Shown: positions 46,301 through 48,060 of the stretch, piece after piece
How positions within the stretch are numbered: position 1 is the stretch's first letter
Layout of the letters: every line of letters starts with the position of its first letter
Origin: Antedon mediterranea
Lineage: Eukaryota > Echinodermata > Crinoidea > Comatulida > Antedonidae
Assembly (NCBI RefSeq): GCF_964355755.1
Contig: NC_092677.1
Span: 377,001 to 441,000, forward strand
Direction: 5' to 3'
DNA: 64,000 nt
Made by a program: the position numbers and the translations under genes
The notes under the pieces: generated by a model
The model's database searches: none
Seen by the model: only the letters and a program-made list of their open reading frames with translations
Told to the model about the DNA's origin: nothing

Positions 46301-48060
46301 TTCGATATAAAAATTACATGATTGGTAAATTACCAGAACTATAAATAAAGTTAAGTTAAGTAGTATTAAGCCTGAACTTTTTCACATTAAGTGATACTAA
46401 AGATATATTATACTAAAATGTGATATATAGCAAAATATGTGGTTTTTGAAATATGTTTTTTTTATGTACTTTACTTAGTGTGAAGATATGTCTCAGCCGA
46501 CGTTAGCCGTGAAGGGTGCAGCGTTTATGGGTAAACTAACGTCAACACTAAAGAGTAAATCAGCAACAGTCAAAGATAAAATGATTGACTTTATTAAAAA
46601 TGAAGTCTCACAAGAAGACAGGTACATTTTGTAAATGTTTTTAGTTGAAATAATCTGAATAAAAAATGATTTAAGCTATGTTCTAGTTTGGAGATCTGAT
46701 AACAAATTTTAGAAAAATAGTGTAGTGTTTAAGAATGGATTTAATAACACTTTTTATTTGTTATCATTAGACATGTTAGTAGTGAGGTTGTAGGCAAGAG
46801 ATACATTTAATAACACTGTTTATTTGTTATCATTAGACATGTTAGTAGTGAGGTTGTAGGCAAGAGATACATTAAATCACACTGTTTATTTGTTATCATT
46901 AGACATGTTAGTAGTGAGGTTGTAGGCAAGAGATACATTAAATCACACTGTGTATTTGTTATCATTAGACATGTTAGTAGTGAGGTTGTAGGCAAAAGAT
47001 ACATTAAATCACACTGTTTATTTGTTATCATTAGACATGTTAGTAGTGAGGTTGTAGGCAAGAGATACATTAAATAACACTGTTTATTTGTTATCATTAG
47101 ACATGTTAGTAGTGAGGTTGTAGGCAAAAGATACAAAGCAAGTAAAATGCAACCAGTCTTTACTATTGCAGATGATGATGATGACAATGGTCAGTACCAC
47201 CTCTTAATTCAGTATTAATAATTAAAAATAATGTACACTATAATGATTTTATATATTTTAATACAAACACAAACAAAAACAAATCACAATCATTAGCATG
47301 GTACCAAGGATAGAACTCTAAATTTCTAAATGAATTTACATACTGATGTGATGTGTCTGATTTATATTGTAACTCACCATAACCAATTTATTTTCTGTAT
47401 TTTTTCAGATGGAAGTTCATCAAATCTTTCCGATGATGACAGAAGAGAAGTTGTAAACATTGAAACGTGGCTTAAGAAGCCAGAGGTCAAATACAAGTTC
47501 AAATGTCAAGAGGTCAGAGACAATGGATTCATGAGCCCTTGGTAAGTTATATGGCACCAACTTTTTACTGATTTTTAAGTTATTGCTCTTAAATTGTTTT
47601 GATTTATCAATTTTTAAGTCTATGTTACTAATTTTTAACCACCTGCCTAAATTTATTGCACTTAAGTTGTTTTACTTTATCAAATAACATTTTTAATTAT
47701 ATGTTACTAATTTTTAAGCACATTCCTAAAGTTATTTCACTTAAGTTGTTATGTTTATCAATTTTTAAGTTTGTGTTACTGATTTTCAGCAATCTACTCA
47801 CCACTGATACTCACATGTATATTCTACGAGACATACCTGATCGCAAAGGATTTGCACATATAACAGCAAGACGGGCGCTTGCAAGTGTCGCTAAGATCAC
47901 GTCTAAGAAGCGTTGTCCGGAACTTATCACTTTTAAGTATGGTTTCTTAGAGAATGACGTCCTGAAATTGGTCAGTTACGATAGACTTTTTATAACAAAT
48001 GCTGGTGAAGCTACTAAATTAATCAAACAGCAGATTATGACAGTAATAGATTCACAATAA
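40360..48060 (+). CDS. TBC1D23: TBC1D23, 15 exons, complete
   Basis: Predicted exons: 40360-40403, 40890-40998, 41458-41563, 42265-42469, 42608-42731, 43084-43208, 43551-43701, 44809-44925, 45067-45162, 45410-45580, 46040-46189, 46479-46621, 47101-47189, 47409-47541, 47790-48060. All are GT/AG with matching phases; product 677 residues (human about 699). The N-terminal TBC domain (about 40-280) has [27 protein letters not shown] and [20 protein letters not shown]. The rhodanese-like domain (about 325-450) has [15 protein letters not shown] and [12 protein letters not shown] with C394 and R400 in the loop. The acidic linker is followed by the [11 protein letters not shown] segment and a C-terminal PH-like domain ([17 protein letters not shown]). 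TBC1D23 bridges golgin-245/97 on the trans-Golgi and the WASH complex on endosome-derived vesicles; its TBC domain is thought not to be an active GAP. Exon 13 is preceded by a tandem array of its own acceptor. Confidence 0.96.
41890..41990 (+). mobile_element. LINE 3'-end hairpin fragment in TBC1D23 intron 3
   Basis: GGGGCCCTCATGAGACAAGC...GCTTCTAGTGCGGGCCC forms a hairpin like the one at 10899-10940. It is probably a CR1/L2-type 3' UTR remnant. Confidence 0.4.
44416..44542. mobile_element. MITE family B copy, left end missing
   Basis: The right end AAAGTTTGATAGTGTAGACA is intact and the interior TGTGATGTGCTAAAATAGGG is recognisable. The left inverted terminus is absent. It lies in TBC1D23 intron 7. 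Confidence 0.7.
45180..45290. mobile_element. MITE family A copy, right end degraded
   Basis: AAGCTTGGTTTCCACTAGAG at the left, inner GAGTTGACCAATCACAAGCT, and a weak AAAGCTTTT at the right. It lies in TBC1D23 intron 9, about 17 bp after the exon. Confidence 0.55.
46735..47120 (+). repeat. 66-bp tandem array containing the exon 13 acceptor, 6 copies
   Basis: A 66-bp unit (AACACTGTTTATTTGTTATC, ATTAGACATGTTAGTAGTGA, GGTTGTAGGCAAGAGATACA, TT) recurs exactly. The AG acceptors end at 46770, 46836, 46902, 46968, 47034 and 47100. Each unit comprises the 3' end of intron 12 plus the first 36-38 bases of exon 13. Only the last copy continues into the rest of the exon. The earlier copies reach TAA or other intron sequence after ATTAAA. 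Confidence 0.93.

Follow-up and report, generated by a model that had tools for sequence, protein, structure and literature searches.

How can a gene that presents six near-identical 3′ splice sites in a row still be spliced to a full-length product? This question is raised by the boundary between intron 12 and exon 13 of a TBC1D23 gene of Antedon mediterranea, which is located in a 64,000-nt stretch of DNA (hereafter the window). Here a unit of 66 bp is repeated six times in tandem, and each unit carries approximately 31 nt of the 3′ end of intron 12, the AG, and approximately 35 nt of the start of exon 13. To judge from this arrangement, the splicing machinery should need to bypass five look-alike acceptors before it reaches the sixth. 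The features discussed are collected in Table 1, in which plain coordinates are positions in the window and those prefixed C8: are positions on the contig.

Table 1. Features of the TBC1D23 locus and of other boundary arrays in the region
Feature	Position	Strand	Basis or description
TBC1D23 gene, 15 coding exons, 677 aa	40360..48060	+	GT-AG exon chain, Pfam and PDB matches
Exon 12	46479..46621	+	donor CAG/GTACAT at 46622
66-bp × 6 tandem array	46739..47135	+	TRF and unit comparison
Decoy acceptor 1	46769..46770	+	exon 419 nt, product 526 aa
In-frame TAA reached from acceptor 1	46808..46810	+	translation
Decoy acceptor 2	46835..46836	+	exon 353 nt, product 593 aa
Decoy acceptor 3	46901..46902	+	exon 287 nt, product 571 aa
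Decoy acceptor 4	46967..46968	+	exon 221 nt, product 549 aa
Decoy acceptor 5	47033..47034	+	exon 155 nt, product 527 aa
In-frame TAA reached from acceptors 2-5	47075..47077	+	translation
Acceptor 6, alone among the six in yielding the full 677-aa protein	47099..47100	+	gene model
Exon 13 proper, 89 nt	47101..47189	+	donor ATG/GTCAGT
Degenerate array, 79 bp × 2.8, up to exon 15 acceptor	47577..47786	+	TRF, 77% matches
Donor array, 69 bp × 5	C8:294154-294496		coding-like neighboring exons only
Donor array, 71 bp × 3, 5′ splice site	C8:440884-441097 (window 63884..64000 plus 97 bases beyond)	-	ANKS3-like gene probable
Donor array, 44 bp × 7	C8:451369-451680		coding-like neighboring exons only
Acceptor array, 114 bp × 4	C8:498110-498575		transmembrane-like exon behind Ig exons
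Donor array, 40 bp × 7	C8:504855-505136		behind Ig exons

The repeated acceptor of TBC1D23 exon 13

The gene model that frames the array is a GT-AG chain of exons whose product is read in one open frame. This product matches the Pfam families TBC1D23_C (1.2e-50, residues 481-654), RabGAP-TBC, and Rhodanese, as well as the PDB entries 6jl7 (2.9e-156), 6jm5 (4.1e-39), and 8qqf. A preliminary description of this DNA had named the gene as TBC1D23 and the affected exon as its 13th, and both assignments are borne out by the 15-exon model and these matches. Intron 12 measures 149 nt up to the first decoy and 479 nt up to the real acceptor, and intron 13 measures 219 nt. No processed copy (retrocopy) of the gene was found with a query of exons 12-14, for which all eight matches fell within the gene itself, with one candidate scored.

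As a repeat, the array is far beyond chance. TRF assigns it a period of 66, 6.0 copies, 97% matches, and a score of 731, and when the array was used as a query against the 354-Mb assembly, some stretches of which are N, the single place listed was the array itself. The six copies had initially been called exact. Their number and length stand, but pairwise comparison in the register chosen here shows 0-7 differences per 66 positions, with units 3 and 5 identical, and this range falls to 0-5 without two positions at which unit 1 keeps the intron's own letters. Seven positions vary among the units: the two just mentioned, four others in the intron, and one in the exon, where the sole variant (AAG/AAA) is synonymous. 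The AG and the start of exon 13 are present in six of six units, and the unit comparison confirmed every acceptor end that had been proposed (46770, 46836, 46902, 46968, 47034, and 47100). At the copy junction, exon sequence ending in GATACA meets intron sequence TTTAATAAC, and the shared sequence amounts to at most one base, as would be left by a simple tandem duplication with later growth. The array would have begun as one 66-bp duplication across the boundary and then expanded to six copies as a minisatellite.

Repeats of this kind have precedents. The TBC1D23 array agrees with the “mirages” of amphioxus, a class of minisatellite-like repeats that copy an intron-exon boundary in tandem and are described for Adh3, BflGb6, BflGb9, TnC, and PGBD5 (PMC3087553, PMC3902484). 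Like these, it is a tandem minisatellite (66 bp × 6) that spans a boundary and carries a splice signal in each unit. BflGb6 shares its anatomy, as its units likewise join the 3′ end of an intron to the 5′ part of exon 2 and its two haplotypes carry six and three units (PMC3087553); by analogy, copy-number variation of the TBC1D23 array is plausible. Unit sizes given for amphioxus are 150-160 bp for BflGb6, 10-72 bp for Adh3, and 60 and 108 bp for PGBD5, compared with 66 bp here. The amphioxus mirages strike both 5′ and 3′ boundaries, and as described in these reports they do not disturb regular splicing (PMC3087553, PMC3902484). They differ in belonging to a cephalochordate host and to other genes, whereas the present array is in TBC1D23 and was read in one assembly. 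Among the literature matches listed, reports of mirages concerned amphioxus only and none concerned echinoderms or hemichordates, which does not prove their absence there.

One of the amphioxus cases also bears on whether faulty assembly produced the repeat or its copy number, because the mirage of BflGb6 haplotype 1 seemed to be aberrantly assembled in the draft genome (PMC3087553). We regard such an error as extremely unlikely at TBC1D23. The copies carry private substitutions, many comparable arrays occur in the assembly, and the assembly consists of just 18 contigs, the five examined being 28.6-41.4 Mb long.

Consequences of acceptor choice

The fate of a transcript spliced at each acceptor can be read from the junctions between units. 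The junction of units 1 and 2 reads ATT TAA, the next three (2/3, 3/4, and 4/5) read AAA TCA and leave the frame open, and the last (5/6) reads AAA TAA. Consequently, acceptor 1 leads to a stop at 46808, and acceptors 2-5 all lead to the same stop at 47075. Earlier claims that upstream acceptors meet an in-frame stop, that some copies read TCA and continue, and that only the last acceptor opens into a full exon agree with these results, since all five decoys give a premature stop, three junctions read TCA, and 677 aa are obtained from the acceptor at 47100 alone. Products from acceptors 1-5 would be missing most of the C-terminal domain that exon 13 and later exons encode, and among the six acceptors the last alone leaves the TBC1D23_C domain (481-654) intact. 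Nonsense-mediated decay (NMD) acts on premature stops located more than ~50 nt upstream of a later exon junction. The distance from the stop to the end of exon 13 is 379 nt for acceptor 1 and 112 nt for acceptors 2-5, and the stops lie 245-512 nt ahead of the last exon junction, which places all five decoys (5/5) within the reach of this rule.

By eye, the pyrimidine tract is TTTTT in unit 1, TGTTT in units 2, 3, 5, and 6, and TGTGT in unit 4, so that the tract of decoy 1 is at least equal to that of the real site. All six units also retain, at equal distance, a T-N-A-Y sequence that we take to be branch-site-like. The TAA at 47075..47077 overlaps a TAAC of this branch-site-like form, 23-26 nt ahead of the end of acceptor 6. 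The difference between TCA and TAA at the unit junctions falls on the free position of the T-N-A-Y, and thus the frame can open while the motif stays unbroken.

The explanation that we consider probable is that the array is a tolerated minisatellite, that acceptor use is mainly exon-proximal, and that leaks are removed by NMD. The array would be tolerated because its last copy still links an intact acceptor with an intact exon. The acceptor at 47100, which is nearest the exon body, would be used in most transcripts because, of the six, it should be the best partner for the donor of exon 13 (89 nt). Transcripts from earlier acceptors would carry a premature stop and be degraded by NMD. No regulatory role is necessary for this explanation.

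Published data on competing acceptors point in both directions. When β-globin RNAs carrying two copies of the 3′ splice site were spliced in vitro, with 14, 55, or 205 nt of exon following the upstream site, splicing is described as very inefficient and as using the distal site exclusively (PMC5389562). By analogy, this result would count for exon-proximal use. Such Reed and Maniatis-type substrates likewise make acceptor copies compete in cis, with a piece of exon behind the upstream copy, but they are built and have two sites (PMC5389562), whereas the six sites of TBC1D23 are natural. Human data, in contrast, are reported to show a preference for upstream 3′ splice sites that is strong in short introns and weaker under exon definition (PMC9225289), and the amphioxus work raises the possibility that mirage copies could act as cryptic sites (PMC3087553). 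Because intron 13 has 219 nt and intron 12, measured as far as decoy 1, has 149 nt, the human short-intron rule could favor a decoy. This preference, the pyrimidine tract of decoy 1, and the conserved branch-site-like motif may all count against exon-proximal use.

An additional feature of the units is a donor-like CAT/GTTAGT located four bases past each AG. On a simple scale an in-unit donor of the array scores 9.5, within the range of 8.5-11.5 for the 14 donors of the gene model, and stepwise removal of units is therefore conceivable. The locus might accordingly be viewed as an intron or exon in the making, in which units are removed one after another as new introns or an inner unit serves as a small exon. 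This idea has been proposed for amphioxus globins (PMC3087553), and the formation of a new intron from a single duplication across an intron-exon boundary is described for potato RdRp (PMC4974935). Boundary minisatellites in human genes within segmental duplications are also said to alter splicing in some cases, to vary between recent paralogs, and to be capable of making new introns (PMC2812944). At TBC1D23, however, the exon 12-14 query matched its own gene alone, there are six copies rather than one duplication, and the homology-supported 677-aa model needs no new intron and nothing from units 1-5. Moreover, CAT GTT AGT is also present as ordinary codons in exon 13 itself, and the candidate exon that ends at the in-unit donor has a negative coding score. 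We consider this alternative very improbable.

Boundary arrays in the surrounding region

Whether the TBC1D23 array is a peculiarity of one gene can be judged from its surroundings. The region surveyed (C8:277001-541000) comprises the window and 100 kb on each side, 264 kb in all, and is situated close to the end of a contig of 28.6 Mb. TRF was run with a minimum score of 60, and non-overlapping arrays with a period of at least 25 and at least 1.9 copies were counted. The TBC1D23 array is one among 78 such arrays, which occupy 22,663 bp; 13 of them start in the window, and the 200 kb of flanking sequence holds the other 65 (19,867 bp). The arrays were then screened for a splice site in the end unit that opens into a coding-like open exon. 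This screen listed 19 arrays, including the two in TBC1D23, in 24 combinations of array, strand, and type. Because 8 of the 17 screened arrays outside TBC1D23 were inspected, the numbers of boundary arrays given here are lower bounds. With the TBC1D23 array included, 6 of the 78 arrays are well supported as spanning a boundary, one is degenerate, and one is weak, and 4 of the 65 flank arrays are among the well-supported ones.

The degenerate example is in TBC1D23 itself, at the end of intron 14. One earlier 79-bp copy is identical in 47 of 57 columns to the end of the intron plus the first bases of exon 15, and two earlier equivalents of the acceptor read TTTTTAAC and TTTTTAAG, compared with TTTTCAG at the true site. 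We take it to be a probable older boundary array of TBC1D23.

The five other well-supported arrays comprise one acceptor array and four donor arrays, and their support comes from reading frame, splice sites, and neighboring exons. Pfam confirmed the Ig domains of exons near the arrays at C8:498110 and C8:504855. Two neighboring Ig-domain genes each seem to bear a boundary array, one at the transmembrane-like exon and the other at a later, probably cytoplasmic exon. Downstream from the array at C8:440884, on the same strand, is a SAM-domain exon (match to PDB 4nj8, 4.8e-11), and array and exon probably belong to one ANKS3-like gene. For the arrays at C8:451369 and C8:294154, a Pfam search of two neighboring exons gave one sub-threshold match and none for the other. 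Searches of four boundary exons outside TBC1D23 (those of 504855 and 356449 excluded) gave no match for three and one match below the cut-off, taken as chance. In each case, the neighboring exons presumably share a gene with the array.

Three further candidates were not taken as well supported. The array at C8:356449-356607 was kept as weak, with neighboring exon scores of at most 7.6; that at C8:479031-479175 was dropped, as by eye it stops upstream, short of the acceptor that opens a kinase-like exon; and that at C8:331936-332615 was not counted, as it looks like a repeat within a reading frame. The latter (200 bp × 3.4) has an open repeated frame, IGGLLRSVKPG..., and is possibly a repeat inside a coding exon. 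Elsewhere, a 63-bp × 7 array at 3627-4069 of the window lies within an open minus-strand frame of 181 aa that has no gene evidence. A minus-strand frame of 418 aa at 55661-56917 of the window has, by eye, the look of a Penelope-type retroelement with a GIY-YIG end.

The decoys of the six well-supported arrays have kept their AG or GT in 26 of 26 cases, and thus there is no sign of decoy purging in these arrays. When reading frames beyond TBC1D23 (five arrays) were assigned by a simple coding score, 21 of the 26 decoys would lead to a stop, one to a frameshift, and four would stay open in frame. These four are the decoys of the array at C8:294154, all of them stop-free, where splicing from later donors could make the protein longer by 22-23 aa at a time.

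Random placement would give 1.6, 3.2, 4.7, 6.1, and 10.0 such arrays at assumed densities of 0.5, 1, 1.5, 2, and 3.6 junctions per kb, respectively, the last being the density inside TBC1D23. The six observed fit the 3.2-6.1 expected at 1-2 junctions per kb; as these densities are assumed, we claim neither enrichment nor depletion.

These observations bear on the idea that the five decoys act as a brake, by which a fixed or regulated share of transcripts is sent to NMD and TBC1D23 is lowered according to copy number. The stops from all five decoys lie well upstream of later junctions, the pyrimidine tract of decoy 1 is the better one by eye, and upstream acceptors are favored in the human short-intron data (PMC9225289). 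Yet boundary arrays at other probable genes nearby (ANKS3-like, Ig-domain) argue for a mutational process, and regular splicing is what the reports on the amphioxus cases describe (PMC3087553, PMC3902484). The earlier suggestion of NMD-based regulation gains no positive support: stop placement is what NMD would require, but the several boundary arrays in the region, together with the amphioxus precedent, favor tolerated growth of a minisatellite over a device specific to TBC1D23. We consider a brake unlikely.

Some properties of the wider genome were also recorded. The assembly gave 37 homeodomain matches, 12 of them in a row at C2:7.83-8.21 Mb. Nine of these 12 were read, and we take them to fit anterior to middle Hox genes plus Hox9/10. 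The outermost two of the row are convergent, and this pair lies ~47 kb from its neighbor. A published feather star is described with ten Hox genes in a cluster and, at a distance of more than 360 kb, two posterior ones that face each other (PMC7351957), so that the outer pair is convergent in both and the gap is larger there. GC content is 33.2% over the 264 kb, and values of 33.22% and 33.71% are given for that feather star and for a sea urchin, respectively (PMC7351957). Hox layout and GC resemble those of the feather star and point away from amphioxus, although GC by itself does not separate crinoid from sea urchin.

Implications for exon definition and annotation

It is tempting to extend this reading to the whole genome, such that boundary-spanning minisatellites would be common in this non-cephalochordate and the spliceosome would regularly pick the exon-adjacent site from near-identical runs. 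The basis for this is the 4 well-supported arrays among 65 in 200 kb of flanks, which had been picked irrespective of boundary arrays. In five 10-kb pieces from the interior of contigs, arrays were counted without regard to boundaries, and there are nine, covering 1,966 of 50,000 bp. Arrays are thus denser in the surveyed region than in the inner pieces, and for this reason no genome-wide extrapolation is made from this stretch. We hold the genome-wide view only tentatively, as somewhat short of an even prospect.

If this view is true, then the genome would be a natural experiment on exon definition at genome-wide scale. It would also hold a standing source of copy-number-dependent isoforms, for which the open in-frame donor array at C8:294154-294496 is an example. 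Natural arrays of near-identical splice sites that differ mainly in position make the rules of exon proximity and intron proximity testable without constructs, and the sixfold acceptor of TBC1D23, with a stop past every decoy, offers a clear readout. Should mirages prove common in an ambulacrarian, they would not be a feature of lancelets only, and gene annotation in genomes of this kind would have to allow for them.
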